This document shows, piece after piece, positions 7,501 to 61,891 of a stretch of 64,000 nt of DNA. The notes beneath the pieces are model-generated. The model made no database searches. It saw only the letters and a list, made by a program, of their open reading frames with translations, and was not told where the DNA came from. The position numbers and the translations under genes were made by a program. The stretch's first letter is position 1. Every line of letters starts with the position of its first letter. Source of the DNA: Trebouxia sp. TZW2008 (lineage: Eukaryota > Chlorophyta > Trebouxiophyceae > Trebouxiales > Trebouxiaceae); assembly GCA_002118135.1 (NCBI GenBank), contig BDIU01000395.1:1-64000 (forward strand), in the 5' to 3' direction.

Positions 7501-10500
7501 AACACAGGGGCCTACTGACACTGTAGTCATGTGCGCTGTGCCTCTGTGTATCTGTGTATAAATCAAGTGATTCTGAGTGGTGCAGGGATTGCAAAGGGGG
7601 CCACTGACACAGCCTCCCTGCTGGCTCAGAATGTATACGAGGGTGTCAAGCAGCGCATGCAGCAGCTGCAGGCAGCAGTGCAGGCAAAGGAGCGCCAGAT
7701 TGATGCCTTGCAAGCTGAAATGACCACTGCTGAAGAACAAAGAGTGGCTGCCATGAAGCAAGCTGATGCCAAGCAGCAGGTGAGCCATGCATAGCAGCAG
7801 TCAACTGAACACCGTTGCAATGCTCATTTGCTGGGACGCAAGCAGATGCCAAGCATCAGGTGGTACATGCAAGGCAGCAGCCAACTTACCACCATTGCCA
7901 TCTTGACTTGCAAGCGGAAGTTGCTAGTGCTGAAGAGCACAGAACGGCTGCTTTGAAGCAAGTTGACGTCCAACAACAGGTGAGCCATGCATAGCAGCAG
8001 CTGTGTGGCTGCCGTTGCAATGCTGCCTTGCAAGCTGAAGGGACAACTGCTGAAGAACACAGAGTGGCTGCCACGAAATAAGCAAACTCCAAGCTGCTGG
8101 TGAGGCATGCAAGGCAGCAGTCAACCTAGTGTCATGCAAATCCCATTTGAGTGCAGTGATTCAGGCAGTGTCAGATGTGAAGGCCTTACATTTTCTGCTG
8201 GATTGCAGGCAGCGCTTGATGAGCAGAAGTCAAAGCTGGAGGGTGACATGACCCGCCATCTGGCTTTCATAGACCGTCTGCTGGCAGACAAGGATAAGCT
8301 GTCTGCCAAAGCGCTGCAGCTGGGCAAAGACATCAAGGTGCCCACTTTGCTCTGCTCTTGACGCTGAGCATCTGAAAATGTTGCTCAGCATCACCAGTCA
8401 TACTGCAAGTCACTTTGTTGAGCAGACTATTGGTTTCCACCAGTACGATGTATTGTACTGTATTGTTCCCTGCTGAACATTTGTCGTGTTCCTGTCTCAG
8501 TTCAAACCGGGGTAATTTCAAGTCAACATTGCAGGACAGGCAGCTCAAAGGCGTTATCTACATATTTAAATTGAACATATCAAGAACGACAGAATGAATA
8601 ATTTAAGGCAACATCTTGGTGGCCATACAGGCAGCAGAAGCAAAACATGCTGCTGGGGTGGAGTCCTTGAAGGAGGGCTGGCTGGCTGAGCTGAAGAAGC
8701 AGAAGGAGGGCTGGGCGGCAGCAGAGAAAGGAAGAAGAGACATCTGGCTGGCTGACAAGACCAAGCAAGTCAAGGAGCTCACTGTCAAGGTGGGCGAGGC
8801 AATCCTTGTGCCAGAAATAGGTTGTTGTCAACATTGATAAGGCTTTGACGATGCTTTCAAACAGATCAGTGGCGTTTTCTGTTCCAGAATCTGCAAGGCA
8901 GTAGGACCGGCATAGCAAGCCTGGCAGCATCAGGCACAATGGCATTATCCAGTACAGTAAACTCTCCTTATAACGACTGCTTTGGTTACCACAAAAAATG
9001 TCCTTACATCAAATTGTCCTTAATCAGAGGGACCGCTGCAGTCGGAAAGCATTGACTGGGTACCAACGGCGTTGTCCTTACATCAAGATTGTCCTTACAT
9101 TGAGTGTCCTTACAAAGAGAGTTGACTGTACCTCCCACTGCTTGTGGAAGTCCGGCTGAAGTGACACCGAAAAATGTGGAAGCTTGCCTTCATTTGCTGC
9201 CAACATCAGCTCGTTCTTCATTGCTGTCTCAGTCTCTGACAGCACTCATTGACGCATGTCTGCATCTTTCCTTCCCTCAGTCAGTCACCCGCTCCCTTAG
9301 TCGCTTGCTTGCTTGCCTGCTCGCTCTCGGTTCCTTTCCCTTCATCACTCCCTCTCTCACTTCATCAAATAACACATAAAGCACGCCAGAATTGAATCAT
9401 TGCCAATGAAGTTTGGTAGCAATGGTGCTGGAGTCAACAGCAGTTCCGCCTGGACAGAATAGTTGTGCGTCAAAAGTTCTGACATAAATAGCATGCTACA
9501 GGGCATGGAGCCAGAGATTCAGCGGTTGATAGGCAAGCACAAGGCTGAGCTGGAGACAGAAAGGGACAAAGCGCAAGCTCACACCAGGTAAGTCATGGCA
9601 GAAAGGTGTTCATTTCCAGTTTTCAAAGATGGGCTGACATGTTCCGACGCATCTTGCCAATGTGAAGATGACTGCGCTGCAACGGATCCTAACAGCACAG
9701 CATGATCAGAGCATGCAACATTTGCCACCTTCATTCGCATGCAGGCTGCAACTGGATAGCCCAAGTATTCAGCATGACCAGCGCAAACAACTTTTATCGT
9801 GTTGTGCAGGCTGCAGCTGGATGAGCTGACTAATCAGCATGAGGCATATGCTCGCCAGCTGACAATTCAACATGACCACAGCCTACATAATTTGTTACAT
9901 GTGCTGTTGTGTAGGCTGCAGCTGGATGAGCTGACTAGCCAGCATGAGGCGTATGCCTGCCGCGTGACCGTATCCAGAGCGTGAAACATTTCTCACCGTT
10001 CTTTTGACTGGTCAACAGCTGTCGGTTGTGTAGGCTGCAGCTGGATGAGCTGACTAGCCAGCATGAGGCGTACGCTCGTCAGCTGAGGGAGCGCCTTCTG
10101 CGTGACCAGGACCTGGCTGTGGAGCGCGAGCGTGCTGCCGCACAAGATCGCCTCAGGGAGGCTGCTGAAAGGTGAGTCCCCAGTATGAAGTCAATAGTTG
10201 CTTCATTAGGTATCAACAGGGTTCCTGTTGCTGCCGCTGCTGCGTGATCAAGATTTGGCTGTGGAATGAGAGCGTGCTGCCGCACAAGACCGCCGCAGAG
10301 AGGCTGCTGAAAGGTGGTCTTTGACCTCAATAGAATCTTGAACTGACATTCACACACGACCAGTTGGTGATCAGCAAATGACTGAGGTAAGCAGCAACAG
10401 GCTCCTGAAACGGAGACCACCTGGTGTACACAATGTGTATCAACAACACCTGGCTGTGGAGCAAGAATGCGCTGCTGCACAAGACCAACTGTTTCACCAA

Positions 10501-13500
10501 ATCCTTGCCATGGAGCGCAAGTGCACTGCAGCACAAGAACAATTTAGAGAGGCTGCTGGAAGGATAGTCCAGGCAGTACAAGTATCATGGACAAGTGTAA
10601 CCATGTGCTTGCCATGGAGCGCAAGCGCACTGCCACACAAGCTTGACTAACAGAGGCTGCTGAAAGGTAAATCCCCATAATCAACACTTTCATCAAGAAT
10701 TGTCACCAGGGTTTTCCATGTTTCCAAGGCGAACGCGCTGCAGTATCACATTGAGTCAGAGAGGCTGCTTCAAGGTGAGTCCACAGTATCAAGACTTACA
10801 TGACCAAGTATTGCCAAGTCCTTGCTAATGCTGTTTGTTGCCGCTGCGCCAGACCAACTCAGTATGGCCGTTGAAACATGAGTCCTCAGCAGCAACAGGG
10901 TTCCTGGACTAGGCATCAATAGCGGTTTCTGCTCCTGATGCTGCTGCTGTCGTTGCTTCTTGCTGCTGCAGTAAAAAAGATTAAAAACCTTCCTGCAAAA
11001 ACGAATTTTGCAGTTTCACCAGCAAGGAAGTTTCCAGAGAATTCCTGATGCTGCAGGTACGAAGGGCAGATGCAATCCCAGCGGCTGCAAACGGCGCCAG
11101 ATAATCAGCTGCGCCTAGAGCAGTTCCAGGCAGAGCACAAAGTATCATGCGTCAACTTGCAATCTGCTCCAGGGTTTGAGCCAGTTGCCTGCAGACATTG
11201 TTGCTTGAGTTTGGCAGACAATCGAAACAAATGTTGTTACTGCAGGTATGAGGGGCAGATGCAGTCCCAGCGGCTGCGCATGGTGTCAGACAATGAGCTG
11301 CGCCTGGAGCAGTTCCAGGCAGAGCGCAAAGCTGAGAAAAGGCGCTTTGAAGATGTCATTGACCAGCTCAAACAGGTACATTTTTACACGTCTCACCATT
11401 GCAGAGATGTTGAGCTTCAATGCATCTTACCTGACATGTGAGAGCTGCCCTGCACTGCTATGTGTGATGCTACATCTAAGATTATGTGCATGTGCAGTAA
11501 CAGCTACTTTTGTTGTGAGCAGCGGACATGCATTCGATGCAAAGTTTCTGTATCACAGCGGACATGGCAATGGCTGCCCAGTAAATGCTGACCTTTATCA
11601 ACTGTGCACCGTTAAGCTGCCTCTGCTTTGCACAGTCCACCTCGTCCAAGTGTGACATATGTGTCTGCAGTCTTGTGCTGGCTTGACACCATCTCCACAG
11701 TGAGATGTGAAGTGCCTGATGGCCAGCACAAATGACTTCACAGCAAAGAATGATCAGACATCATGTTGTCATGAGCCAAGGTCTTTTGCTGTATGGTATT
11801 CAACCTCCAAGCTGCCCAAAAGCATGTCACAGCATTGCCATCAGATGTTATGGCAGACGAGAAAGTGTCCTCTTGGTGCAGGGGTCAGGTGAGCATGAGC
11901 AGCAGATGCGCAGTGAGCTGAGTCTGGAGAAAGCCCAGATGCGACGCCAGCACGAGCAAGAGCTTACAGCTGTGCAAGATGCAGCAGCAGTTGAGCGGGT
12001 CTGCTTCCCTATTCATCGAAGTGATATCGTGTCTGTAGGTGCGTGTGTGCATTGCAGGGGTCAGGTGAACATGAGCAGCAGATGCGCAGTGAGCTGAGTC
12101 TGGAGAAGGCTCAGATGCGGCGCCAGCACGAGCGGGAACTCAAGGCTGTGCAAGATGCAGCAGCAGATGAACAGGCAGGATGGCGATTAGCAGTGGCCAA
12201 ACGGGCCAAGGAGGAACTGGCAGCCCGAGAAACTGCCCTGCGCACTCAATTACAGCAAGAGCGCGACCGCCAGCTGCAGGTCTGCCTTTGTTACTGCATG
12301 TCTGGCCCCATGTGACTTCAGTAACACACTGGCTATGCTTTCATGTACTGTTTTGCTTTGGGCACTAGCCCATGTCAATGCCTGTCTGCTGCCCTACTGT
12401 CCTGCCGTGTTCTTGCCTTCAATGGTGGAAATGGGGCCTGATACTGCATGCACTCACATGCAGCGAGAGCGCAACTGCCAGCTTCAGATCTGCCTTGCAC
12501 ACTCCTGCACTGCCTGTCTTTGCAAGAAGGCATCTGTTCAGCAACCTCAAGCAGGAGCAGGTCAGCCTGTGCTGCATTTCAAACTTTTAGTGGACTCATA
12601 TGCCTTTAGTAAACATTCGTATGCATTAGGCGCCATAAAAGAAAAGTCAATGCCTTAGAGCATGGTCACAGGAGACAGTGTGAATAGAGGCACACTAAAA
12701 TGCAGGTGGTCACTCAATGCACTTGTCATTGAAACGCAGTATGCTGCAGACACATGTCAGGATTGTCCAGAGTCTGCATCAGCAATTTGCCAGGGAAGAC
12801 TTCGCATTTTCTTTCTAAGGTAAAGTTAAAAATATGAACAAACAAGAAAATCTGCTGCAGGCAGTAGTGGAGCGTTTGGAAAAAGAAGCGGCAGACAACA
12901 GGCGCGCAGCCAAGCAGGAAGCTGACCAGCGGGATACAACCCTGAAGGGCCGTTACCAAGCTGCCCTGCAGGCTGCTCAGGGGTCTGAACACAAGCATGC
13001 TGAGAGGCAAGCATGGGTTCTAGCTCTGTTGTAACACAAGAACTCACTTACAGTCAAGAGCTCAGCAGGACAAGACTCTGCCGACAATGCTAGATTGTGT
13101 TGGGCAATGGCACCGTTGTGTATAAATCTATCCTTGTTTGTCATGTCTGCTGTTCTGTGGATTGACATTTGCACAAAGCAGTTCCCAGCACAGCGTCAAA
13201 CACAATGAATGGCTTGATTCATATGTCTGTGGGATTTTGTCTTGAGCAATGCACACTATGAATCTTTGATGGTGAGATTGTGGTGTGGTCTCTTTGATGC
13301 TTAGCATGTGAAACAATTGTGGTACGGAACTGCAGATTTAGGGTGGCAGCTGAGGCAGAAGCTGCAGCTCAGCAGCGCAATGAGCAGCTGCAGGAGCAGG
13401 TGCAGCAGCTGAAGGAGCAGGCTGAGGAGCGCAGCTTGGGCCTCTTTGATGCCCAGCAACAGGTAATGTACTTTTGTTTGCTGACGGATATTCCTGATCT

Positions 13501-15054: not shown

Positions 15055-18000
15055 TCATATGAGGCCTGATGAGGATTGCTTAACGCGTGTGCCGCGCTGC
15101 CATTTCACCAGCTCCTCATCATATGCCTTGCTGGCATGACCAAGCATGCCCTTGGCTGTGTCAAACGTTGCCAGCTTGATGCCTGCAGACAGCATTGTAC
15201 AGAGTGACTGCAGATACATGATAGTCCAGCCATGATCTCATGCATTGTCAGCTTGCTCAAGCCTTTCATAAGGCAACCAACAGACATTGCCTCACAAAGG
15301 AAGCTCCAAAATTATCTTTCTGACACAGCAGAACCAAGCTTGCTCACCTGTATTGGAAGGTTTTTGAGCACACTGTGTGAGAAGCGCAGATACAAGTCTG
15401 ACTGCTGCTGTGCACTGACAACAATGCAACTCACTACATTTGGGAGGTTCCTTAAGGCTGCTGCTGGTGCTGCTGCTGTACATCAGCAACAATGCAACTT
15501 ACCTTTATTAGGAAGATTTTTGAGGGCGTTGGGCAAAAAGCCCCTATACAAGCCTGGCACGCCGTCCCTTTCCAGCACCTTTTGCAGGGCTTGTCGCGCT
15601 CCCATCGCGCCCACACTCTGTAGCTGTATTTGCCGCCTGCATGTCATGACCAGGATTGTAACAACTCGCCGTCTCAGGGTCAACCCAGGGACTTATCCCT
15701 TGACACTGCATGTTGCAAAGACAATATCTTGATAATGCCCTTCAGTGAGCTCTTGGGCTGAAGCAGAGCTACCTGCTGGCTTGTGGTCAGCAACTGTTGA
15801 CAGCACAGATGCTGCAGCTTCAGCAACATCAGCAGCCGCACAAGCTCTCAACCTTGTAATAAACTTCTGCAATTTTATGCATATGCATATGCATGAGCTT
15901 CAGCCACAGCCAACGTCTTTGCACATTCCCTTGCCCAAGATATGAAAGCAGAAAGCCGAAACACCTACCCAGCTTGTGATGCAACCCAGGGCTGGTTGCC
16001 ACAACAAGCAAAGTAAAGCCTCTGATCATGCAAATGGCAGGGATTTGACAAGCGTAAGCAAAGCCCCTACCTGACAGTATCTAGTGGGTAGCAAAGAGAG
16101 GTGGCAAAGAGCGCGGCTGAGAACCCTTTGGCAAAACCTGGCACATCTGTTGGCATAAGGTCATATGACGCCAATTCAAGCGCCATGTAAGGAGCAATGC
16201 CTGCATTCACGTCAAAGGTCAGTCACCTGTTACTGTTTACTGCTTACATAAGACACGCTGTCAGAGACCCAACAGGGGTGGCTACAGGACACCATGCAAA
16301 CGCTACCAGAGACCCAATGTAGGGCCATATAGACTGTCTGTACTGTGGCTGATTATCACAAAGTCAAAAAAATCATGACATGGTGACACTACGCACTTGT
16401 GATAGTGGTAAACATGAGTGCCATGTAATGGGGAATGCCTGCCAACACATCAAGGTCTCAGTGACCTATGCGATTCATGGCTATGAGTGTCAACATCGTA
16501 ACCTTTGATGTTGTTGTTATGCAAAGCAGGTGATAAATGCATTTGTCAAAATGATTTCGCAGGAGATGGCGCTATTCAAACACGCTTGTCAGCTTTAACA
16601 AGCATATATATGCAAGGTGCATGACGTATGCATTGTGCTTTGTTGTAGTGACACTTGATACAGTGACATTGTCAGCGTAACAACAATGACAGTGGGAACT
16701 TGTCACTGCAATGGTAATTCTGAACGGTGACAACACAATGTGGTGACAGTTTTCTTGGTGACAAACACAATTGTTACATGCGGCAATCACAGTAACAAGT
16801 TTTGCACAAAGCCAGGCCACTTGTTGTGCAAGCAAGACTCATAAGTCATGTGCACTGAGCTGTGCTGCGGGGATGAAGCATAGCAAGAGTGCCACTCCAT
16901 AGATTGTATTCAGGCCTTCTCAAAACAGCCCATCAAAAGCTGCTGAAGACCAGACCCAAATTTGCCGTGCTGTTAGGTGCCAATGCAGGAGCTTCTGTGA
17001 GCAAAAGCAGCCCAGGAACAATTGCTAACCTATCAATGAAGCACCAAGTCCTCGGAAGAAGGCGTTGTAGGAGCCTTCCCTGAACAGGGCTGCAGAGGCG
17101 CCACGAATGCTGCGCATGCTGGGGTCAACAGCTATCCGCAGTCTCAAGGTGTCCAGTGGATATGTGACCTGCAGAGTGTCTTATTTCAGTGCAGGAACTG
17201 CTGAACTGTAAGTTGTGTGTCGATGCATGGTCAGGGCATGATCAGTTGCTAGGGTCCACAGCTATCCGCAGTTTCAGTGTGTCCAGTGGATATGTCACCT
17301 GCAGAATTTTTGTTTTGAGTACCGACATGGCTGAAACAAGTGAAGGCCCAATCTTCTCAGCCCAATGTATGCCGTCAACATGCCCAAAAGAGCTGCAACC
17401 AACAGCTATGTTCAATTTCACTGTATCCAGTGGGTATGTGCCCTGCACAGTTGATGGCTTCAGTGCTCATACTGCTGAAACAAATCTGCACCTTCTGGAG
17501 CCAACAGCTATGCGCAGCCTGGATTCAAGGCGACCTGCATAAAAGCTTTGGTGCCTGCAGATTTTGGTTGCCCTCTTGCACATTTAGTGGTAGTCATGTT
17601 GCTGCAGCAGAAGTGGCATGTCATTGCACTGTGAAGCAAATAATGCTATGCATGATGCTGACCCATTGAACGTTGTGGTGCATGTCTAATACAGCCATGT
17701 CTAGTGCAGTACGCCGGGCCTGAGCAAAGCATGCAGCAAGGACAGAAGTGGAGGGCATTTTGCTTTTTTTGTTATGCATCTAGCAGGCTCACTATCAAGC
17801 TGTGGGGATCACGACTATGATGCAGAGCAATAAGCACTGACTGTAGGGTGAAAAGGATCCCAAGATTCCGAGGGTCTCTGGATGCTATACCAAAGTTGCC
17901 GTGATGCTTCCCAGACATGTTTGGGATGGCTGCTTGGCATGGACATCTTACATGGACGCTTGCCATGAACGTGCTACAGGGACATCCTGTTCAATTCACA

Positions 18001-19076: not shown

Positions 19077-19399
19077 TCGAAGACTTTGAAAGCCGTTAGG
19101 TTAAGGCCTCGGTAGGTTTGAATTCTCGAGGTCTTGAGTTCTCACTGTGCATGCACATTTGAGATTGTGTTTGCGGTCAACTTGTACTTGCAAATCATGT
19201 GCGAGAGTCGAGAGCTGGTTTGTGCTGCACAGGACAGTCGCAAAACATTCCATTTTATTTAGTGAGTTGGCTGGATCCACCAGAACTCATGTCCGAGCTG
19301 TGCTCTTTATGATGGCACAATTTGATGCACGTACGTATGTGCCCTGTTGACTTGATCCCTGCAAGAGGCACAGGATTCTGAGTCTTAACTATATGCCTG

Positions 19400-20545: not shown

Positions 20546-20645
20546 CAGCAGCTTGGCCCTTAGCAGCTTGCGATCTGCTTGTCGACCTCAGCACAGAATG
20601 CTTGTCCGCGCTTCCGCGAACCTGCGTGCTCCGCCTTGAAATGGA

Positions 20646-23600
20646 ATGATCCAGGCTGGCATGGCGCTGCTCGGTCAGGCTGCGTATAACATCGCGCAGA
20701 ACATCGCTCAGGACCCACAGCACGCAGCACAGGTTGCACAGGCAAGGCAGCAGCATGCAGCTCAGCTTGCAAAAGCACAATTGCAAGCGCAGGCCCATGC
20801 TGCTGCGGTCAAAGCAAAAGCTGCGGCTAAACAAGCTGCGGCTGCTCAAGAAGAAGCCGAGGGTGCTGAGAATTTGGTGACAGGAGCTGCGGTATGACTC
20901 GGTGCTGTGTGCTGTGCTGTGCTATGTGACGGGCACCTCTGAACATCCAATTCACCTTGGAACCTGTGATCTGTCTTTTGCTGAGCACCCACAAAAAGCT
21001 ATAGACAGCGACAGGGCACACTGATTGTGCTAGCCATTGCAGGGGCGAGATGAAGAGGATTCAGAACTGTATTCAAACTACAAACCTGCTTGGAAGGTGG
21101 ATGGGCGACCCCACCCTGATCCAATTGTTGAAACGGCGTCACTAGCTGGCGTCACTCCGCCAGAGCCCAAGTACCAGCACCACCTCCAGGTCTGTACTTA
21201 CGAGAGTGTGACAAGGGCGGCAAATAAATTTTGCCCTGGACCTGCAGTTCCTCTACCCAATTTTTTTGGCAGACACAAGCAGCCATAGACACCTTGCCAT
21301 CAGACTGAACAGAGCTTTGGTAACTGCAGGATTGTGTTGCTGCTGGGCAACTGTCCAATGCTCAGCTGGAGGCTGTGGTATACGCTTTCATGCGGTTTGA
21401 CAAGAATCTGCAGAATGGTAAGCCATTTCCGTTTGTTCTGCATGTCCTGGGCTGCCCTTTTAGACTCCAACTGTGACGCCTCATGCCGCTGACTTTCTTT
21501 CCTTTGTTTTGCATGGATGCTGTCCGTCCAGATCAGCCTTCACCTGGCAGCTGGACCACCCTGTGCATCATGAGTATCTGCTGTACATGCAACACGCATG
21601 GCTCAATCTGCTTGCTTCTAGATAAGCCACCCTTGCACTGGATGGCAAATGTGCTGCTGCCAACACCTGCCAAGAGAGTGTGCATTGTTTGGCATTTGTG
21701 CAATTGTGTGCAGGTTCCAAAGCAGGTTTCTTTCTGGGTGATGGGGCTGGAGTGGGTAAAGGCAGACAAATAGCAGCCATGATTAAGGAAGATCATGCCA
21801 GGGGTGGCACACGTGTCCTGTGGCTCTCAGTGTCTAATGATCTGCGCTTTGACGCTGAGAGGGACCTAGCAGATGTTGGTGCAAGGAACATCCCTGTGTT
21901 CCCAAAGGTGCTGCCATGTTGCATCTCCTGCATTGCAGATGTGTCATGCTGGTGTGTTCTGCGTGCTGACCACAGGCATTTGTGCATGCATTCTGCAGAC
22001 TCGGCTTGTTTGCTGAATGTCGTGGCTGCCGGGGATTCATGCTGACATCCAATCAACTTCAGTTGCACATCGGCATCAGAAGTTATGCTCCCAAGCAATT
22101 GAGCAGGTTGTAAGGCTTTGCCCATGCACATTGCAGGGAAGTTCAGGGCTACCAAAGGGCCGCATAGACAAGCACCACAAGCATGGCGTCATGTTCATCA
22201 CCTACAGCTTGCTCATAGCTTCCTTGAAGAAGACACTGAAGACAGTCGATGAGCAGAACGTGGACCCAAGCGACACAGCTCAGGGTAGTTTGCCAGACCC
22301 TAAGGATCTGGGTGTAGTCCCAGGCACTAGGCTGTTCCATGTGGTTGAATGGCTGGCTGGGCGTGACGGCAAAGGCAATTGCTTGATCATCCTGGATGAG
22401 TGCCACAAAGCCAAGAATCTGATAGCAAAAGAAGGTGAGCTCAGATACTGGGATTTCGTTTACACAGCTAATTTCTTTACAGCAGACCCCATTATGGCAG
22501 GCAAGCGATGGCAAAGGCACAAAGGTGCTGTTGCCCTATGGTTCTTATGCATACCTGGCACAACAACAGATGTAAGCAATGGGTGTGGCTGATGCCTGTT
22601 AGCAAAAGCAGGTAAGCTCAGAATTGGCCTTCTGTGTGCACAGCTGAGTCCTTGACAGAAATCCCTGCACTGACAGGCAATTGATGGCACAGATTTAATG
22701 TTTGATCAATGTTGTGATACGTACATCACACAGAGCACATGTGACCTATGGGTGTAGCCAAGGCCCAAGGCCTCTTTGTCTATTGTGTCGTGTTTCAAGG
22801 TGTGTTTCATATATTCTCTGTGGGTTGCAGGCAGTGCAACTTAAACTGGAAAGGCTGTTGGCGCTCTTCAGGATCTTCTGCCAAATGCCAAAGTGCTGTA
22901 CAGCAGTGCTACTGGTGCTTCACAACCCAACAATTTAGTGTACATGTACAGGCTGGATGCTTCGACTGAGTTATTTGAAGACACTTCTCTGTGGTTTGCA
23001 GGTGGTGCGACTCAAACTGGAAAGGCTGTTGGCGCTCTTCAGGATCTTCTGCCAAATGCCAGAGTGCTGTACAGCAGTGCTACTGGTGCTTCGGAACCCA
23101 ACAATCTAGGGTATATGTACAGGCTGGGTGCTTCTGGGTTCAACCATATGAAGGACATGATTGATACCCTCAACAGGTAGTAAAAGTTCCGACCTCTTGT
23201 ACAGTACTATGTCTGTATTATAGTTCTCTGTCTGAAGAGGATATCTGACTAAATACCAATATTTATCTCATCTCTTCATCTATTTGCATCAAATGTCTAT
23301 TCAAGAAAATATCTTTGTAAACAGCAAGTCAGTCCATTCTTGTCGTAGTGATACTGCAGCCAGGAATTGAACCGTGCATCTGACTGCAGTGGCCCTATGG
23401 TGTAAGAGCAGTCTGCATTGTGAGAAGCGCAGCCATTGCATCAAGAAACCACTGTGAAGGCTCACAGTGCATCTAAATGCCCGAAAGCCATCTGGACTGT
23501 GCTCTTGATCACCCTGTTTGAGGATATGTCTGTGTTGGGCCACGCACACACCTAGCACATATGCTGGAAAGTTTAATCAATTATTGTCATTATTATCACC

Positions 23601-48802: not shown

Positions 48803-51800
48803 TCAGTGACTTTTAGTTGAATTTTGCTGTGCAGGAAAATGTGGAGCTGTCTCCAGCATATCCTGAAATGGCAAAGTCCCCCCACTAAACGTGTGCCGTC
48901 GAACGAGGTTTTGGTTCTTGTGTCGTAGTCTTCGCAGCTTCTGCTGCGACTTGGCGCCAGACAAAGGATGGTACTGGACATTCTCAAGCTGGTCATGTTG
49001 GTTGGCAGCACCTGAATGTTTCCACAGTCAGCGTTGAGCTCATGTGTAACACAACAGTTGCAAGAGATCATGCGACCTGTCATCTGTTTTGTTTGCACCT
49101 GGATCTTCCCAAACTTGGTGTCGAGCTCATGTGTTGCAACAGATCATGCATGCGTGAGCAGTGCAGTTGACGTGCCAGCTGCTTGAGATTTCGACGTCCA
49201 AAATTGAGCAGGTCATGAAGACATGCAAGCTACTAAATATGCAAATAGACAAACAGCCCGTGTCAAAGCGCAACAGCCACTTGCCTTCACCAGCCCTGAG
49301 ACGATTTTCTGCAGAGTTGACTTGCTGAAGCATCTGATTGTTTGCAGTTGTGGTGACATTCAATAATGATGATTCCTTGATGCAGAATCAAGGATTGCAA
49401 TTTCAAACAGGCAAACATCAACTGCCGATAGAGACACAAGACATGAGCAACTTACTGGACAAAAGCTCTAGGCCACCAACAGGTGCACTGCCAAAGAAGG
49501 GCCGATCTGTCTCATAGATCTGCAGCGGCGTGCGCTTGGATTCATCACCAGGGTCCTTCCTGAGGGGGGTGGGGGTCTGCTGGGGGGCGGGCCCTGCCGC
49601 CCTGTGGGGGGTCTGACCCACCACAGGCAGCTTGTTCAGATTTGGAGGCACCATGCTGCTGGTTGCCAACCTTGGCACCTCTGCAATCAGCAGACAGCCA
49701 GGTGAGACATGAAGCTGCGTTTTGATGAGCGGTTGTTGAATGCATCAGAATCTGGTTCAAGTGTATCAGGGTGGCTGCAAGGCAGCTTGTGCAGTTCTCC
49801 AGCCCAAAGGGGGTGTAGGACTCCTTAGTGCCCTGTGATTGGTGCTTCCAGCCCTGAGTCCTCGTCCCAGGCCAGCTGCTGAAAGGCAAAGGTTTAACAG
49901 CCAATTGGCAACAAACTGTCATGCCCAAGTGTTCAAGCTCACAGGCAACATGCTTTTAGTGGGCAACCTTGGCAGCTCTGCATTGACAACAGCTTGCTTG
50001 CAGTTGGCACATGCACTGTAAAGGCAGCAACAAGAGATACTGCTGAGGCGTAGGCCCTGCTGCCCGCGGGGGGCCCTGACCCCCACCAGGCAGCTTGTTG
50101 AGGTCAGGCGCCATAATGCTGCTAGAGCCAAGCCCCAGCCAGAGGGAACCTTTGCATTAGCAGACAGCTTTGGTGAGACAAACCACAATGCACTGAGAAA
50201 GCAATAGCAGGAGTGCCTATGCAAGACCTTGCTACAATCCAAAATGGCAGATGAGCCTTTTAGGGGCAGAGCCATGTCACAACATGCTTTTACTACAGAC
50301 ACCAACTTGTTCCTAGCCCCTGTCAAGTCAAGTCAGCCGCTGCAAAAATGTGTATTGCAGCTGCATGGTGGGATGGTGCTTGATGATATGTCATGCTGGA
50401 GGGTGGCCATACCAGTGAGAGTCTTCTGCAGCTTCTGCTTGCTAGTGGCTCCTTCTAACAGGCCCCGTATGGACACTATCACATGCTGAAAGCTGGGGCG
50501 GTCACTGGGCTCCTGATTCCAGCATGCCTGCGATGCAGCAGCAATATAAGTCTGAAGCGGTTGAGTGGTCAGTGCGTCAGCTGAAAGGTTGCGTGAGTTG
50601 CAGAAAGCTGGGCCGGTCACCGGGCTCCTGGTACCAACATGCCTGCAAAGCAGAGTCACTTCAGGTCCATTGTCAATCGCTAACTGATTGATTGATTGAT
50701 TGATCGATCGATCGATCGATGGACTGATTGGTTGGTTGATTGATTGATTCATTCATTGGTTGGTCAACTGGGTGTGTGTTAATGATTGCATGACATGCCC
50801 AGAACTGGGGCAGTCACCAGGCTACTGACTGCAGCACACCTGCAAAGCATATTCTGGTGATGGACAAGCATATCGGCCTGTAGATGCATGAAAGTAGCAT
50901 CAGATTGTCTTGTGCAATCAAGTGGTGACTGCTTGTTGATCAGTAGTTGAGTTCGGGTGTAATTTGGTTGATCAAGTGCTTGCTCATTTGATTCCTTAAA
51001 CAGTTGGTTATTCAGTCTACCACTTGCTTGATGAGATGACTGAATGATGATTAGCATGATTGACATACAAGTAGATCAAGGCGTACCTTCATGAGGTCGA
51101 TGTACTCTTTGATGCCGGGCAGTGGTTGGCCAGGCAAAGCTGCCAAGTCTGGGATGGCTGGCCGATCCTGTGCTGCCAGTCTCAGCATGATCTGCAACAC
51201 GTACAAAGCTGCTAAGAAACAGACTCTGAGGCAGCAGAGAGTGTTCATCAAGCATGTGTGCAACACAAAACAGGCGTTTGATAATGATCACCAGTTAAAC
51301 AGCATGATTTGAAACATGCAGAACAGCCGGTGGAGGCACCAATTGTGTTCAACAATACCATGCTGGCTTGACTTGCACCAAGCATGCATCTATCACTAAC
51401 AAATCACAGGTCGCAGACAGTCAGTACAGTAACCTGATGAATGCAGCGAATGCCTGACAAGATGGACATTCTGCCTGCATGCAAGCTCATCAGACATGGC
51501 GTCCAGGCTCTGACCAAACAAAACAATGGCATCAAGTACAAGACTTGAACCCAAGCAAGAGGCGCTTGATATTGCATGAAGTCACTGACCTGAAAGGGGT
51601 TGAGCTCCTCCCAGGGCATGTCCCATGTCATCATCTCCCACATGATGATGCCAAAGGAGTACACATCTGCTGCCTTGCTATGGTCATGGTTCTCCACCAC
51701 CTGTAGCGCATGCGCAGTCAAGCATTTGCAAATTTACTGTGCTGCATAACATATGTGTGTCTGCAGCCTTGCTCTGATCATTCTCCGCCACCTGTAGTGT

Positions 51801-54800
51801 GTTCACAGCTGTGTCAAGTCAGAGACTCAGCGTTGGCAAAGGCACTCTGCTCCTTCATTGTCACGTGAGTACACGTCTGCAGCCTTGCTATGATCATGGG
51901 CTTCCACAAATTACATTGCATGCAGTTCTTTTGAGAGGTGCGATACACTTCAGCTGATCATGATGATGACGATGATGACAATGACTACGATGACTACAAT
52001 GACGATGGTGAAGATGGTGATGAAGAACATGATGATGGTGAAGGTGATGAAGATGGTGATGGTGATGGTGATGGTGATGGTGATGATTATGGTGATGGCA
52101 GTGAAGATGATGATGCTGGTGAAGATGATGATGATGATGATGGTGAAGATGGTGGTGAAGATGGTGATGACGATGATGCAGTGTGCAGGATGTGGTATGC
52201 AAGTTGTCAAGGTTGCAGCCTTGCTGTGGTCATCATTCTCCTCCAGATGTGTTGCATGCACAGCTGTCTCAGATCAAAGTCAGCATGAGCCAAGACGCTT
52301 TGGTACTCTGAGATATGGTGTCTGCTGCCCTACTATGGTCCTGCTTCTCAGCCACTTGTTGTGGCTATCGCTACAAACCATAGTAAAGCAGCATAACTTT
52401 GACAAATAGGCGCCATACATCAAACAGACAGGTCTTTTATTTGAAGGCAAACAGGTATTGATATCTGTACAGCATGCGCACCTCAGGAGCAAGCCATCTG
52501 GGGTTGTTGGCCAGCAAGGAGTTGACAGAGGAGCCAGAGCCGTTGGTCTGCACCATGCGACTCAGGTTGAAGTCCGTCACCTTCACACGCCAGTGCCGCT
52601 CCACCAGCATGTTGGGCGATTTCAGGTCCCGGTGTAGAATGGACGGCTTGTGGGAGTGCAAGTGTAAGACACCCTGCAAAGGCACAGACTGTCCAGACAG
52701 GACCGCAAGGAGAAGTCACCTTGACCCGCCAGTGCCGCTCCACCAACATGCGACAGACTGCAGTGCAGAATGGATGGCTTGTGGGAGTGCAAGTGCAGAA
52801 CACCCTGCAGGAATGCAGCTTGTTAAGGGCGCTTTTGGGCAACTTTGACCTTTTGATACTATGGCCATCAGCATGCTGGGCAACTTCAGGTCACGATGCA
52901 GAATGGACGGCACGTGAGATTGCAAGTGCAAGACATCCTGCAAAGACATAAACAGTCAGAAAACTCATGTGTTGGAAAACAACATGTGCCTTCAGGGCCT
53001 CTGCTGATCACATGTGTCATATGCTGATGTGTCCTGTGTACCAGCATGTTGGATGACTTCAGGTCCCGGTGCAGAGTGGATGGCTTAAGGAAATGCAAGT
53101 GCAACATGCCGTGCAGAGACACAGACTGCTTGGTGGGACTTTGGAGAAGCTTGGGTCTTGCATGAACGCTGCGTGGACACAGAATGTATAGCTGTACGCC
53201 TTGACATGCCAGTGGCGCTCCACCAGCGGTTCCATTCAGGAAGCCCTTGATGCAATAATTGTATATCTCCAGAGACACTGGTCCTTGCATTTGTTCTTGA
53301 CTGCAAGAATCAATGCAGTCAGATCTGATTGTGTCCCAATTGCATTGTCTGCCTTGATAATGTCTTCATATCGGAAGTCTTGTTATCAAGACTTCATCAC
53401 ACAGGATTGATAAGCTTTCTTCTACCTTAGCAGCATCCAGAGCAATGTTGAGGCGACTGCTCCAGTCCAGCTGCTATGCACAAGCAAGGCTGGTAAGTGC
53501 CTTCCTCAGCACAACAAACAGGGACCCACAACCACACAATTTGCCACAAATGGGACCGTGCTGCGACAATTGACCAGCTATCAAGTTGCATGCTTGCAGA
53601 GGTCAGTTCAAGTTGATGCCTGCACCTTGGCAGCATCCAGAGCCATGCTGAGGCGCCGACTCCAGTCTAGCTGTTGGGCAAAGGCGGGGCTAGTACGTGC
53701 CTTCCTCAGCACGTCAAACAGAGACCCTCGGGCGCAGAACTCGGTCACAATGCATGGGGGCTCCAGGCACATGCCCATGAACATGACCACGTTTGGGTGG
53801 CGCAGGCTTGCCATGATAGACACCTGCGACATGCAAGGCGGATCAAAATGGGTTGTCTAGGTGCAGAACTCAGTCACAATGCAGGGGCCTCCAAGCATGT
53901 GCCCATGAACATGACCACGCTTGGATAGCGCAGGCTTGCCATGATAGACACCTGCAACAATGAAAGGCGGATCAGAATGGGTTGTTTAGGCGCAGAACTC
54001 AGTCACAAGGCAGGGGTGCTCCAGGCACATGTCCATGAACATGACCACATTTGGGTGGCGCAGGCTTGCCACAATAGACACCTGCGGAAGGCAGATCAGA
54101 ATGGGTTGTCTAGGTGCAGAACTCGGTCACAATGCAGTCGGCCTCCAAGCACATGCCCATGAACATGACCACGCTGGGATAGCGCAGGCTTGCCATGATA
54201 GACAACTGCAACAAAGAAAGGCAGAGCAGAATGGGTTGTTTAGGCGCAGAACTCAGTCACAATGCAGGAATGCTCCAGGCACGTGCCCGTGAACATGACC
54301 ATATTGGGTTGCCGCAGGCTTGCTATGATACAGACCTGCCACTATAGAAAGGACATTGAGAGGATGCACAGGCATCAAAGCCTGCAGCATGAGTCAATTT
54401 GTTGATGACAAAACATTCAGCTGCTAGTCACATGGCAGCCCATGTGAGTTGCTGGCAAAGAAAGAGACCGCTGCAGCAGCACAGACTAAGAAGCTTTGTG
54501 GCCTTTCCACTCTCCCTGCATGTCACCGCACATTTGGCTCACACTGCATGTCACCGCACATTTGGCTCACAGCGAGCTGGGAATACGGCAAATTGTTGCA
54601 GAATTACTGTCACTTCTCCGTGTATGGACATTGGACATATGGACATGCTCATTTTAAGCACAATGCAATTGGGTGTTGAGCACTGCAATCTGGCAGCAGT
54701 GATGCCTGTGAGGAACAAAATTGTGTGATAAGAATGTTGTTCTGAATTATCAAAGAGAGTTGTTATCAAGAGAATTACTGTATCAGGCACAGACACAAAC

Positions 54801-57800
54801 CTCTCTCTCCAAAGTGCGCATAGCTGCTGTAGCAGGCTTGTCTAGTGAATCAACAGTCGGCTGTCCATCATCAACAACAGCCTCTGCATCAGTCACCCCT
54901 ATCAAGCCCTTGGCAACCTTCTTCTTCTCGCCGCCTTGCTGTGGGTGATTGTCATCAGAGCTTTCAGTCCAAGGCTGTAGGGTTGCTGGATCCTGGGGCT
55001 GAACCTCGCTGTTTGGCGCCAAATGCTGCATTTCTATCAATACCTTGATAGCCACGTCTGTCTCCTGCCATCTGCCAAGATACACCTGCAATGCTAAAGC
55101 ATCTAGTGAGTCACTGTGAGCTGTCAGTCCAAGGCTGTAGTGTTGCTGGATCCTGGGGCTGAACCTCACTTTTTGATGCCAAATGCTGCATCTCTATCAA
55201 CACCTTGATAGCCACGTCTGTCTCCTGCCATCTGCCAAGATACCCCTGCAATGCTGGTAGATGTTTAGTGACTCATTCTGTGCAGAGTGCTTGCTGCCAG
55301 GCTATAGCTGGGTCCTGGGGCTGAACCTCACTATTTGACGCCAAATGCAGCATCTCAATCAACACCTTGATGGCCACGTCTGTCTCCTGCCATCTGCCGA
55401 GATAAACCTGCAATACTACCGCATGTCAGTGACTTACCCTCTGCACAGCACATGGTACAAGCCTTATGCTGCATACATTGTGTCATGCATGTTTTGGTCT
55501 GACTGCCAACTGCGAAATCTGTATCTCTACACCATGATAGCAACATCCGTCTCTTACCATGTGCCGAGATACACAAGCAAATCCCTGGACCCATCAGCCC
55601 AATCATGCAGCAGAATCTCTGGCGCACAAAGGTATGAGCAGCGAGCAAAGGTCATGGGCACTGCAAATTCCCCGGCTTGTTAGCCCAAACATGCGGCAAA
55701 ACGATGAGCACAAAGGTATGAGCAAAAGAAAACGGATATATAGCCCTACAGTATGCGCTCAGAAGGCAGCTCATTGCGCATGTATGTACCGGGTCACTGC
55801 GTAGTCAAAGCCTGCCTGACAAGCACTTGCAGTGAAATTATGATTGTACTCACCAGGCCAATGGAGCCATCGCCAATTTTGCGCTTGATTTGCAGCTGAT
55901 TGTACTCGATCACAGAGCAGTTCATGGCCTCCAGGACCTCCCAGCTGCTACGGCTAGACACCTGGTCGTCCCTTGACCTACGATATGGCGAGGGGCTATA
56001 GCCTGAGTATGACTGTTGCCCACTGCCGTGATGCAAAGGCTCTGCAGTTGCACGTCTCCTGGGCACTGTTGTGGCGTCAGATTGCATGGCCTGTGCATGC
56101 AGATGTGCCTGAAGCTCTGACTGCGTGATGGATGACAGCTGCCTCCCTTCATGACTCCTACGTCTCTGCTGTGCCTGCTCATCTGTCCAGCGTGGAATGC
56201 GTTGGGATTCCGAAGAGCTGCGGGGTCTAGGGGTGATTTCAGGGGGCCGCAGAGGGGAGTCCTCATGCGTCCACGTATGTCTGCGTCCTATGTCAAACGG
56301 ACTGAGCCTGGGATCAGCGTTTTGCTCTGTCTGTTGTGCTGATGCTGACCATCGCGATGCATCACTGCTCACCGGCTGACTGTCATAGTCCAATGATGTC
56401 CCCTGCAGGTGCTGTGGGTTGACTGAAGTCTCTGAAGCTTCACGGGACACCAGGGCTGACTGTGGCCTTTGAACAGAAGCTTGCAAAGCGTGCTCAGCAT
56501 GGTTGCTTGGCGGAGGGGCAGCACGCTGCACTTCAGATGAAGAGGCGGCAGACGTGCTGGGTTGTGTGAAACTGTCCCCAGATGGACTGTCAGCTGGGTC
56601 TGTCATGAACGCCTCTTCACGAGACCGTGCTGAGTCAAAGCTTGCAAGCTGTCTGGGGCTTGTCTGTGTAGCACTGTCAGTTGTCTCTGCTGACGACGCT
56701 TGCTGGGAAGACGAAGCATCAGCTGTTGCAGGTGGCATGATGTGCAACAGCCGGCTAAGCTGATTGATAACATGCACAGCCTGCTCCCGGTCCAGCGCAC
56801 AAGCTGTACCTACAGATAAGTCTTTGTTGGTGTTACTTTGACTGCCTGCGTCATGACTGTGTGACTATTACTGCCAATGGACTGCTGTACCCTGCAGGAA
56901 TTGCCTCATGGCATATGTACTTAGCCATGCATTAGTGCAGCAATATTTGATGCTTGCAAGCAGGGACAGAATGCTGCCGGATGAAGATGCCTACATGCTG
57001 GGAGGCACGCTGTTTTCACAATGTGTGCATACCACCATTCCATGTGAACGCAAAGATCACAGCTGCTTCTTTTGCAGGCACCCAACGCTTCATGGCAAAC
57101 TGTCAGGGCTGAGTGTATTATCTATTTTGTTCTGCCGCTCCTGTTAGCAAATTCAACTTCAGCTTGCACCGGCAGCATTGCCGATTGCAGAAACACAGCC
57201 CCCTAGCTGAAGGCATGAGAAACATGTGTACCTGGCTGTGTGATCTGCACGCTGGCGGGCTCAGCATTGCTGTCAAGCCTGCCAGATGCCAGCTCTCTAG
57301 CCAGAAAGCCTAGAGCATGTGTGGTGCGAGCGGCAGACTCAGGAGTCAAGCCCTGTTCCAACAGATTGCAAACACCGCCGGAACGCCTGCACAGACATGC
57401 ATGCAGCTGAAGATTAGCAATTGATGTTACACCACAGACACCCCCAGAACATCTGCACACATGTATGCATGCAGCTGAAGGACAGCAATTGGTCAAGTGC
57501 AAAGCATTTGCCAACAGAGCGCCCCTAGCATCTGAAAGAGCAGATCACAATGACCTGCTTGCATTGAGACAAATTCCACGTCCAGAACAGGTGTAAGCTT
57601 GAGCATGAGCCTGGTCGTACAAAGCATTTGACATTGACCAGCACCTGTCTATAAGACGCACTGCCTGGCGCACACTTTGAAGGCAGAGCTGTGACAAAAC
57701 ATATAGAAGTGCAGCTGAGGGTACAAGAAAGTGTCGAGCAGAAGATACCTGGGCGAGCCTTGTTCTCCAATTTGCAGGTCCCAGACTTGCTGTGTCAATT

Positions 57801-58432: not shown

Positions 58433-59066
58433 CACGCAGCCTACTCTAGGGTGCTGCTGCTCCTATGATTCCATGAGACTCCAAAACAGGCGTCCAAGGC
58501 CGAACTGGCTTGGAACTCTCTGAAAGCTGTTCGTATCGTCTCTTGAACGGAGTCGATTAGGCGTCTGGCAGATAGACTCCAGGTGCAGCAGCCGTAGTCG
58601 CCACAACAGAGTCGCACGTTACCACAAGCGTCAAGCTGATAAGAACAGGCTAGTAAACGAAAAGCCAGAAAAAGCTACACCGACTGACAGACAGCAACAG
58701 CTTCACAAGCGTTGCGCGTTGAGACGACTGAAGCAACGAGCTAACTTTCACCGTGGCACAGCTACAATCACACCAACAGGACAGCTGCTGCAATCAAATG
58801 CTTGAGCACACGGCAAGCAGCGATGCAGGTTCCCGAGCTTAAGCTGGTGTTCATATCAGAGGCATGTTAGTCATCATGCACCAGCACCTTTGTGTTAGCG
58901 TCCGGAATGTCGCTGGCTTCAATAGGCATGCCATGTTAATCAACGTGAGAATCTTGACGCTATCAGTTTGCATAGAGTGTGCCACGATTTGTTCAACGTG
59001 TTGCTGCTGATGTTGACATCGTGTGATCTCAATATGGCTGCTCCCCGCCTACAACCATAAGCCTGT
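58433..59066. promoter_or_regulatory. Divergent intergenic region kinase/EIPR1
   Basis: This 634-bp interval between two start codons on opposite strands is the likely promoter region for both genes. I see no defined TATA box or repeat. It is called from gene geometry only. Confidence 0.4.
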
Positions 59067-61891
59067 ATGGGGGATCGGGGAGTGACTCATGGTCTAAAAT
59101 ATCAAGCAAGGTCGCTAGTTGCTTCGCCCACATCGCAGCAAAACCGCTGGTTTGCGGGGACCAACGCGTTAAGAGAAGAGAATGTGGTAAGTACAGATCG
59201 CTGCCGGTACCATCGCAGTCACTCTCACATCGGAACAGCCCTATATCTGTATTGGTACCTGTACCTTTTCAGGTACAAGTGCTGGACTTCGATACGGAGA
59301 CCGACACTGTGAAAATAGTCGCATCCTATCTCCATGGACAGGAAGTGTGGCACATTGCGCCTCACCCCACAGACTCAGCTTCTTTGGTTACCATTGGCAA
59401 TCAAGGTGCAAACTAAGCAGCCACCAAGATCATATATCTGTGTCAAACCCCTCATGAAATCTTTCGCTTGCACAGGCGGCTCCTTTTCAGCCACTTTGTG
59501 GGGCATCTCCGCCAAGGATCAGCTAGAAAAGAAGGCAGAGCTCAAAGCTGGCAGCGGGACACCCAGAGCAGTTCTGTGGCATGCACAACGTCCAGACGAG
59601 CCTATTAGCATTGAGGACAGCCGCTGGCGCCTGTGGAATGTCAAGGGCCAAGCAAATGTGAGGTGATTGCAATAGCAGCATGACATGTGCTACACCTATG
59701 TTGTCTATGTCTTCATACATGTCTACAGCCTGCACATCTATGCGGCACATCAGCAGTAGCCTCTGTGTGCTAAGATATATGGATACATGCAGCTTTTGAC
59801 TGCAAACAGCACATAACATTGCTGACATGCAACACTCAAGCTTAGACGCAACTGCTGCCTCTACAGTCAAGCTAATCAGCGATTTTGACTCACAAATGCT
59901 ACTGGGCTGCTCTAGCCTGGCATCATTGCTGGTACTCTGCAACAGCGTTGCCTTGCCACCATGCTGCAAAGCGCAACAAACAAGGGAAAGGAATCTGTTA
60001 TGCCACTAGGTGTCATAATGGAAGCCTCTGAGGGCAGAGGCAGCTATTACACACAAAATGACTGCAGTCAACTTGTGATGCCAATTTGTGTGCATCACTT
60101 GTGCAGATGACTCATGATGTTGGAGCAGGCGATCTGTATACCCTTTGGGCTGGTGCATGGGACCCTCATGACCCAAACAGGCTATGCACTGCTGGCGGCA
60201 ATGGCGTTCAGGTACATTTGCATTGCAGCAAGGCAGCCAACCACTTGACCACAAAAAGAAACCAACCAACATCCTGCAAACAAATAGCAAAACCAACAAA
60301 AAGAGATTAATGCAAAGAAACCAACCAAAAGGACAAGTTGAGAAGAGGGAAGGCTTTGTTTGCATCATCCCTGATGTCTCAGTCATCATGTGCAGTGATA
60401 TGCAATGGCAAGGCTGCTGCGGTCTGTTCAGCAACAGTATGCAATGGCAAGGCTGCTGCGGTCTGTTCAGCAACAGCATGCAATGCACAACTGTAAGTGT
60501 GTCAACCTTCATCGTCATGCATGTGTTGACCATGATCATGTCTCACAAAGCTTGCGTATCAGTTGCAGCATGTGTTATCCATGAACAACTTTCAGGAAGC
60601 TTCTTGAACAGGTGTGGGATGCGCGAAGTATGAAGCGAGTTGGGGAGATCCCAGACGCGCATTTGATGCCTGTCAGAGACATTGACTTTGCCCATCAGCA
60701 GCAGCATATGATTGCGTCAGCAGGCGATGACTGCAAGCTGTGCATCTGGGATCTCAGGTGAAGCTAAGCACATCCACATACAGAGTGTATTGCTGATGCA
60801 GCTCACCTGCCTCTTTGACTTCCATTGCTGCAGAAGCCTGAATCAATGTTTGCTTTGTACGCTGGGCCACACCAGTCAGCTTGTGCACATACTGCAGTTG
60901 ATTGCTGCATGGGTCTTGTAGCTGAGTACTTCAGTTTAGTCCGAGCAACCTTAACTGCATCTGGTCAACTGGTATGAAGATTAGAGTACGCAGAAAGCTT
61001 GCTTGCAGGACACTGAGCTTCGTCTGCCTCTATGATGGTGTTGGTGGGACACAGTCACTGGGTATGGCAGGCAAAATTCAATCCGCAACATGACAGCTTG
61101 CTATCGTCAGCCTCAAATCATGCACTGGTAGAGCTGTATATGAACAATGTGAACATGCGGAAAGCTTGCATGCAGGAAATTGGGCTTGTCCGTCCCTCTG
61201 TTGGAGTTAGTCGGTCACAGCCACTGGGTGTGGCAGGCAAAGTTCAACCCACATCATGACAGCTTGCTCTTGTCAGCCTCATCTGATGCGCTGGTCAACC
61301 TGTGGCATCTTCCAGTCACTGCCGGAAGAGACAGCAGCAACAGCAGGGGTGCTGGGGGGTCCAAGGGGGGTAAAGCTGGGGGGGTCAGTCAGGGCAAAGG
61401 CTTTGGTAAAGAGGTCCATGATGGCAAGGCATGCACCTATGATGATCATGAAGACAGCGTATATGGTAACGCAGCCTGCTGCCCATGCTGCATGTTTGCA
61501 CTTGCACCTGATGTGCCTCAACTTGCTATACTCGAAGAAAGGAAAAGTCTACACCGTTAGGCATCATAATTGGAGCCTCTATCTAAAGAGGCAGCCTGGG
61601 AATGCTGCTTTGAAAGCACCAACCATACTGATATAGGCTGTTGTAGGCTGTGTCAGTGCTGCACGTGTCTGTCGTTGCTGCATTTGCGTTTGTTTGTTGC
61701 ATGTTTTGTTTGTTTATTCAACTGTGTGTGTATTTGGTGTGAGTGTAGCATTGATTTCTGGACACTCACTTGTCCTTGCAGGTGCTGCATGGAGCCCCTC
61801 AGATGCATGGACATTTGCAACTGTGTCGTATGATGGCCGTGTTGTAGTCAACAGGGTGCCTAGTCACACAAAATATAAGATCTTGATCTGA
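59067..61891 (+). CDS. EIPR1: EARP and GARP complex-interacting protein 1 (EIPR1/TSSC1)
   Basis: EIPR1 is a WD40 protein that partners the GARP and EARP tethering complexes in endosome-to-Golgi transport and recycling. Exons: 59067-59186, 59273-59405, 59476-59657, 60107-60211, 60612-60757, 61176-61465 and 61782-61891. All phases agree, giving 361 residues against about 387 in humans. Family landmarks appear in order: [47 protein letters not shown] then [55 protein letters not shown], and the ending [18 protein letters not shown]. Exon 6 adds a Gly/Ser/Lys-rich linker before the last blade, as in animals where this linker is acidic. The region before exon 4 is shorter than in animals. Confidence 0.95.
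60003..60052. repeat. Short dispersed hairpin element
   Basis: GGTGTCATAATGGAAGCCTC with a GCCTCT...AGAGGC inverted repeat recurs at about 61557-61602 (GGCATCATAATTGGAGCCTC). Both are in EIPR1 introns. Confidence 0.5.
60399..60478 (+). repeat. 39-bp tandem duplication
   Basis: Two near-perfect units (TGCAATGGCAAGGCTGCTGC start at 60401 and 60440) lie in EIPR1 intron 4. It is the freshest tandem duplication in the window and does not touch an exon. Confidence 0.93.
61000..61175 (+). repeat. Acceptor-side relic of EIPR1 exon 6
   Basis: This is a copy of the acceptor and the first 120 or so bases of exon 6 (GGACACAGTCACTGGGTATG block), about 160 bp upstream. It has a one-base shift relative to the intact exon and so cannot code. 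Confidence 0.88.

Follow-up and report, generated by a model that had tools for sequence, protein, structure and literature searches.

Direct local copies of exon ends and their splice sites in introns of the green alga Trebouxia sp. TZW2008

Genes and repeat arrays in the window

The first 64,000 bases of contig BDIU01000395.1 from Trebouxia sp. TZW2008 (hereafter the window) hold protein-coding genes whose introns contain copies of the ends of neighboring exons, each copy comprising part of an exon together with one splice site. The organism is Trebouxia or close kin, a lichen alga, and its draft PRP8 protein matches the Trebouxia sp. C0010 protein at 97% identity across the 701 residues compared. 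The genome comprises 68.5 Mb in 527 contigs, and all genome-wide figures given here rest on samples of it.

The strawberry notch gene (SBNO) occupies the plus strand from approximately 21 to 40 kb. Matches to Pfam place a protein kinase (around 52.5 and 53.7 kb) and a mitochondrial-carrier exon (approximately 18.5–19 kb), both on the minus strand, and an EIPR1-like propeller at approximately 61.2 kb (E 4e-11; 43 bits, below the curated cut-off of 54). The gene named CEP131 in the original prediction gave no Pfam match for the frames tried; that name is not confirmed, and we refer to the gene as CEP131-like. The SBNO linker, at 26000–32500, is long, poorly conserved, and rich in arrays, with a PHD-finger-like exon at approximately 30.6 kb; a PHD domain is also present in several listed plant SBNO homologs.

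Gene models were built with a spliced protein-to-DNA aligner written for this analysis, the splice-site matrices of which were trained on PRP8 (30 exons aligned against the Trebouxia sp. C0010 protein; consensus donor CAG/GTAAGC and acceptor TGCAG/GT, where the slash marks the junction). For SBNO, we accepted exons supported by at least 5 of the 8 guide profiles; the end of exon 37144–37301 varied and was set by hand. Chaperonin genes were modeled in 12 pieces on ten contigs, of which eleven were used, with same-subunit proteins as guides for two subunits and paralogs only for the remainder. Acceptor-type arrays consist of an acceptor plus the 5' part of an exon, copied upstream of the intact exon; donor-type arrays consist of the 3' part of an exon plus a donor, copied downstream of it. 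The copy joined to the intact exon is called functional, and an extra copy within the intron is called a decoy.

Self-BLASTN of the window (E<=1e-4) returned 88 direct pairs, 84 of them within 1 kb, which form 34 arrays; a single inverted pair was found in all, and none within 1 kb. Multi-copy arrays are head-to-tail according to Tandem Repeats Finder (e.g., 125 bp x 4.5, 177 bp x 2.9, and 130 bp x 4.8). We placed 30 of the 34 arrays relative to an exon: 20 are of acceptor type, 10 are of donor type, and none has the opposite order. The original prediction had reported half-exon copies of fixed polarity across the genes of the window, roughly two dozen acceptor-type and a dozen donor-type arrays; the polarity holds for every placed array, and the counts were about right. 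Protein-homology models of SBNO place 12 (7 acceptor, 5 donor), and a further 18 were placed by eye according to which copy continues in frame into the rest of the exon. By acceptor and donor type, respectively, the latter divide into 3 and 2 in the SBNO linker, 3 and 2 in the CEP131-like gene, 5 and 1 in the kinase, 1 and 0 in the carrier-type gene, and 1 and 0 in EIPR1. The 2:1 acceptor excess of the window is not seen in the PRP8 and chaperonin genes (6 acceptor versus 8 donor). The arrays, including the four without placement, are as follows.

7701..8125, plus: CEP131-like, donor type; frame continuity
9800..10086, plus: CEP131-like, acceptor type; frame continuity
10095..10816, plus: CEP131-like, donor type; frame continuity
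11051..11331, plus: CEP131-like, acceptor type; frame continuity
11877..12170, plus: CEP131-like, acceptor type; frame continuity; homology starts at TGCAG
17117..17483, minus: carrier-type gene (inferred from the Pfam carrier exon at ~18.5 kb), acceptor type; frame continuity
22419..22692, plus: SBNO, donor type; end of exon 22137–22434, decoy 22596–22692
22814..23134, plus: SBNO, acceptor type; decoy 22814–22963, functional copy 22985–23134 in exon 23002–23176 (17 intron and 133 exon nucleotides)
23673..24267, plus: SBNO, donor type, several copies; exon 23615–23743
24425..24657, plus: SBNO, acceptor type; exon 24642–24783
25059..25604, plus: SBNO, acceptor type, three decoys; exon 25533–25766
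25692..26279, plus: SBNO, donor type, four decoys, head-to-tail 125-bp unit; other end of exon 25533–25766
27267..27823, plus: SBNO linker, acceptor type; frame continuity
28444..29114, plus: SBNO linker, donor type; frame continuity; second part a 71-bp unit x6
29455..30147, plus: SBNO linker, acceptor type; frame continuity
30352..30757, plus: SBNO PHD-finger-like exon (~30577–30783; 4 of 8 profiles), acceptor type; frame continuity
32119..32431, plus: SBNO linker, donor type; frame continuity; spacer homology retained (z 6.8)
33603..34127, plus: SBNO, acceptor type, two decoys; exon 33998–34203, acceptor approximate
34118..34412 (to 34533 at a looser threshold), plus: SBNO, donor type; other end of exon 33998–34203
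34684..34872, plus: SBNO, acceptor type, 62-bp unit; exon 34817–34942
35938..37276, plus: SBNO, acceptor type, 1.3-kb array; exon 37144–37301, end hand-set
38142..38379, plus: SBNO, donor type; exon 38099–38213, decoy 38305–38379, 93% identity, 88-bp spacer without homology
39457..40073, plus: SBNO, acceptor type; exon start 39926
41378..41810, no strand: unplaced array
49577..50123, no strand: unplaced array
50484..50653, no strand: unplaced array
51657..52302, minus: kinase, two acceptor-type arrays (51657–51907 and 51762–52302); frame reading
52576..53128, minus: kinase, acceptor type; frame continuity
53424..53727, minus: kinase, donor type; frame continuity
53731..54352, minus: kinase, acceptor type, 130-bp unit x4.8; frame continuity
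54958..55580, minus: kinase, acceptor type, 160-bp unit; frame continuity
57369..57491, no strand: unplaced array
60990..61303, plus: EIPR1, acceptor type; frame continuity

Duplicated segments contain the splice junction

Polarity was examined against gene models for SBNO, PRP8, and the chaperonin genes. Of 37 arrays in this set, three were dropped (a 16-bp match and two pairs separated by 613 and 833 bp), and the 34 retained comprise 13 acceptor-type, 13 donor-type, and 8 intron-internal arrays, with none in the opposite order. The acceptor, donor, and intron-internal counts are 7, 5, and 0 for SBNO and 6, 8, and 8 for PRP8 and the chaperonin genes. In all 26 exon-touching arrays the junction lies inside the duplicated segment, in two donor-type cases by 3 nucleotides only; two of the 26 also hold one pair in which the block is entirely exonic.

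The self-alignment of introns against their flanking exons that the original prediction had proposed as a check was carried out on 105 introns, each compared with four neighboring half-exons, and the expected halves prevail. The 5' half of the next exon and the 3' half of the previous exon were found in 11 and 12 introns, respectively, at z>=6 (12 and 13 at z>=4); the wrong halves were found in 4 and 0 at z>=6. All four wrong-half introns also carry the right half of the same exon, and we read these matches as long acceptor-type copies that extend beyond the exon midpoint.

If blocks of the same lengths were copied and pasted over the same distances from random local sources, 15.8 of 26 would obey the rule, 7.6 would be purely exonic, and 2.5 would be opposite or whole-exon; the chance of 26 of 26 is 9e-8. 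Copy-and-paste from random local sources is therefore rejected. Polarity as an independent rule is likewise rejected: in-place duplication across a single junction necessarily leaves the exon-joined copy downstream for an acceptor and upstream for a donor. Polarity is thus the signature of in-place duplication and not an additional law, so that the original prediction stands as regards the order of the copies, with no opposite arrays in the models or the window, and falls as regards a separate rule. Straddling arrays also exceed random placement (26 observed versus 12.8 expected of 34). Exon-anchored copies should stay recognizable longer, and when their odds were doubled under an assumed detectability correction, the expectation rose to 18.6; the excess persists overall (P=0.007) and in SBNO (12 of 12 versus 7.5 expected, P=0.004).

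Extra copies decay as intron and leave decoy splice sites

The extra copies are free of coding constraint and decay as intron. In 43 functional-decoy pairs the exon part is identical at 2351 of 2755 positions (85.3%) and the intron part at 3202 of 4005 (80.0%; P about 1e-8), although multi-copy arrays contribute several pairs each, and P values from these non-independent pairs are too small. Differences by codon position are 0.108, 0.134, and 0.197, with the third-position value matching the intron value of 0.20; this is the pattern expected for a decoy drifting at about 0.12 per site while the true exon changes mainly at third positions. An in-frame stop or a net frameshift interrupts 20 of the 36 decoys that span at least 8 codons, and the residue differs at 211 of the 316 altered codons.

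Many decoys keep a look-alike splice site. The core dinucleotide is retained in 31 of 43 (16 of 23 acceptors and 15 of 20 donors, or 14 of 20 donors where one position is gapped), compared to 0.77 expected from drift (P=0.47), and these counts give no evidence of selection destroying decoy dinucleotides. Decoy scores reach or exceed the lower quartile of real sites for 13 of 23 acceptors and 6 of 20 donors (P=0.12, hence no difference in strength is claimed); in 9 of 43 cases the decoy scores at least as high as its own real site, and in 27 of 43 a frame shift would follow from splicing at the decoy. Judged from the sequence, splicing probably ignores decoys and prefers the exon-proximal member of each pair. 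If decoys indeed go unused, the cell must prefer the exon-proximal site, as recognition across the exon predicts; exon definition and intron definition are both covered in a review (PMC3488318). The arrays offer pairs of real and decoy splice sites within the same transcript.

Automated gene prediction may yield false exons in genomes of this kind; our own aligner apparently treated a decoy half-exon as an exon in one chaperonin piece (C308:5880–9122), which was excluded from the model counts. Read by eye, the repeats of this piece show three acceptor-type patterns and one donor-type pattern.

Occurrence and size range across the genome

The arrays extend past the window to every locus set sampled. 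The expectation that half-exon arrays occur in other genes of this genome was borne out in the PRP8, chaperonin, and kinase loci, and local arrays are present in each of five unselected stretches. Across 241 kb (window, PRP8, chaperonin, and kinase loci) we found 91 arrays, with 196 direct versus 2 inverted local pairs; the closest copies lie 60–240 bp apart in 87 of the 91 (median 140). Five 10-kb stretches picked by position only hold 29 arrays, with 57 direct pairs, no inverted pairs, and units all of 63–230 bp. Copies occupy 16.7% of bases in these 50 kb, and the same sequence yielded no arrays after local shuffling. Density is strongly uneven: one stretch (C193, 100001–110000) has 12 arrays and 42% of its bases in copies versus 3–6 arrays in the other four.

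Exactly one coding-like flank was found for 15 of 25 scored arrays in the unselected stretches versus 32% of random spans (P=0.004), and two coding-like flanks for 0 of 25 versus 4%; the 4 arrays near stretch ends were left unscored. A splice-consensus word occurs in the first copy of 19 of the 29 arrays, a count that has no background and is therefore not used as evidence. Among 30 kinase loci (of 134 matches), 20 contain local direct pairs, with 94 direct and 4 inverted pairs 30–1000 bp apart. Thirteen pairs from 4 loci reach the anchor exon; 9 are of acceptor type, 3 are of donor type, 1 is inside, and none is opposite. Kinesin-family matches were left out of these counts.

Planted units of 60–700 bp were detected at rates of 0.80–1.0 and units of up to 50 bp were not detected, so the upper size limit is real, and the lower end of the range may reflect detection. 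Copies lie approximately 60–240 bp apart in all 29 arrays of the unselected stretches and in 87 of the 91 from the 241 kb, roughly the size of a nucleosome or an Okazaki fragment.

Contribution to intron length

Introns with a straddling array are longer than those without: median lengths are 776 versus 367 bp in SBNO and 584 versus 315 bp in the PRP8 and chaperonin genes, in which a straddling array is present in 12 of 99 introns. The original prediction had described these duplications as a dominant mode of intron growth, a claim that the measured shares do not establish. Arrays make up 47% of 9,200 intron bases in the modeled parts of SBNO and 7.2% of 33,459 in the PRP8 and chaperonin genes, both shares being lower bounds because arrays too old for recognition are uncounted. 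Long introns are usually ascribed to transposons and small indels. Here the source of growth, the neighboring exon, is still readable, and growth can therefore be dated.

Origin of the arrays

We consider it probable that frequent local direct duplication supplies the copies, that duplications straddling a junction survive, and that the spare copy becomes decaying intron. The genome would undergo frequent duplications in direct orientation, with copies about 60–240 bp apart (median 127–140). Those within exons would break proteins and be lost; those with exactly one splice junction would survive because use of the exon-proximal site would still yield an exon joined to the remaining coding sequence. 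The spare copy, a look-alike splice site with half an exon, would turn intronic and decay without coding constraint, and later exchange between two copies would multiply the unit into head-to-tail arrays, through which introns would grow from their ends. On this reading, gain of such copies would outpace their loss.

Several observations weigh against this account. In 27 of 50 two-copy arrays (all positions) the spacer is unrelated to the sequence beyond either copy, and the same applies to 9 of 15 two-copy arrays at >=85% identity. Homology ends 3–9 nucleotides beyond the splice site in 9 of 16 two-copy reaches (hand-listed), which is unexpected if the ends of a duplication are random. Junction enrichment outside SBNO is not significant after correction (14 versus 10.9 of 22, P=0.14), wrong halves appear in 7 and 2 of the 105 introns at the loose cut of z>=4, and placements outside SBNO, PRP8, and the chaperonins were judged by eye from frame continuity.

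Strict head-to-tail duplication does not by itself account for these spacers. Of the remaining two-copy arrays, 9 of 50 are head-to-tail or adjacent, 10 of 50 retain spacer homology, and 4 of 50 fall between. Planted head-to-tail duplications lose spacer homology in only 0–2 of 40 cases at divergence 0.08–0.12 and 9 of 40 at 0.15, and still appear head-to-tail in 37–40 of 40 and 29 of 40, respectively. The near-neutral duplication model of the original prediction keeps its direct local copies, decaying decoys, and longer introns but, in its simple head-to-tail form, does not explain the 27 spacers. The intron side of the decoy may have been lost after the duplication, a loss that would silence the decoy as well; gene conversion may have held the exon parts similar while the intron parts drifted; or the copies may stem from local templated insertion. 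Beside many decoys, intron-side sequence was probably lost or replaced after the duplication.

The stop in homology 3–9 nucleotides on the intron side, at GTA or TGCAG, recurs in many two-copy pairs, including PRP8 exons, and some of these are 91–93% identical. The 93% pair 38142/38305 has 72 exon bases plus GTA in common and nothing further; homology in the 91% pair 11877/12053 begins at TGCAG.

Local templated insertion, in which break repair or replication copies neighboring sequence and pastes it 60–240 bp away into the intron, with multi-copy arrays formed by later exchange between the copies, is in our estimation unlikely. It would leave the original flanks as unique spacer, as seen in the 27 of 50 two-copy arrays, and it accommodates the sharp block ends of the young pairs inspected. 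On the other hand, harmless purely exonic sources should then account for 7.6 of 26 exon-touching arrays, whereas all 26 contain the junction (P 9e-8, with the qualifier that two also contain one wholly exonic pair); 19 of 50 two-copy arrays are head-to-tail or have spacer homology; and local inverted copies are nearly absent.

We think it quite improbable that a duplication machinery is aimed at junctions, or tied to transcription or splicing, making junctions mutational hotspots. The 26 of 34 straddling arrays versus 12.8 expected, the 12 of 12 in SBNO, and the frequent end of homology near the splice site are what such a hotspot would produce; yet the expectation rises to 18.6 when exon-anchored copies are assumed to remain recognizable for about twice the time, the excess outside SBNO is the non-significant one given above, and 8 of the 34 arrays are intron-internal.

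That the copies serve as functional alternative exons or protein repeats is very improbable: 16 of 36 decoys are free of stops and net frameshifts, and 13 of 23 acceptors among the decoys reach the lower quartile of real acceptors, but the frame is broken in 20 of 36, two thirds of the altered codons are nonsynonymous, and decoy-site use would shift the frame in 27 of 43. An assembly artefact is hardly credible, for although tandem repeats do cause misassembly, most copies are 7–30% divergent with a codon-position pattern and the arrays lie on many contigs in a single orientation.

Relation to known systems

Bulk intron growth in algae is known from introner elements, dispersed mobile units that create introns. 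Like these, the arrays raise algal intron content; unlike them, they are local, in one orientation, and derived from the neighboring exon. Dispersed genome-wide copies were not found, the direct pairs of the window being almost all within 1 kb (84 of 88), and one unit searched against the whole genome matched its own array only, in a search that passes over very common words and evaluates only the top candidates. Whole-exon tandem duplication is likewise a local duplication of exon sequence, but it includes the full exon, whereas the Trebouxia copies are half exons with a single splice site and are unusable as extra exons. Duplicated alternative exons have both splice sites and keep the frame; here each copy has one junction and 20 of 36 are frame-broken.

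The term "repeated half-exons" is reported to denote a half-exon with its splice site repeated at a junction, and the Trebouxia arrays fit it. The 2010 genome description of Chlorella variabilis NC64A, a trebouxiophyte, by Blanc and colleagues reportedly mentions such repeated half-exons at intron-exon junctions; literature searches with the term found nothing relevant. If that is so, repeats of this sort have already been described in a related alga, and the present work adds the scale, the neutrality test, and the decoy-site analysis.

In the literature searched for the phenomenon, nothing was closer than a tandem duplication spanning a splice junction of a potato RdRp gene (Ma, Lan and Niu 2016, PMC4974935). 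This is a single case in which a new intron was created and an exon piece added; in Trebouxia, existing introns hold the copies, both junction types are involved, and several-copy arrays occur, with 29 local arrays of all kinds in 50 kb. The original prediction, which knew of no description of such growth as a dominant mode, is thus to be amended by this one published duplication, dominance itself being a separate claim. The Trebouxia arrays are a larger-scale form of a known duplication type. The genome paper of Coccomyxa gives a mean intron of 240 bp, and the passages of it examined make no mention of such repeats (PMC3446292).

Extrapolated from 29 arrays in 50 kb, a process acting at 60–240 bp could run genome-wide with approximately 0.6 recognizable arrays per kb, and we suggest tentatively that straddling duplications may be a leading source of intron sequence in genes other than the most conserved ones. 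The decoys, which would number in the thousands by the same extrapolation and are often as strong as real sites, might then indicate that splice sites in this unicellular alga are chosen across the exon rather than the intron.

Other features

An 820-residue open frame without a Pfam match lies at 4365–6827 on the plus strand, upstream of the CEP131-like arrays. On contig C431 (36312–43883), the introns before model exons 3, 4, and 8 contain inverted, more distant repeats that resemble small mobile elements, unlike the half-exon arrays. Simple repeats occur in the window at 30241–30298, 50685–50762, and 51955–52178, with units CAGT, TGAT, and TGATGATGATGA.

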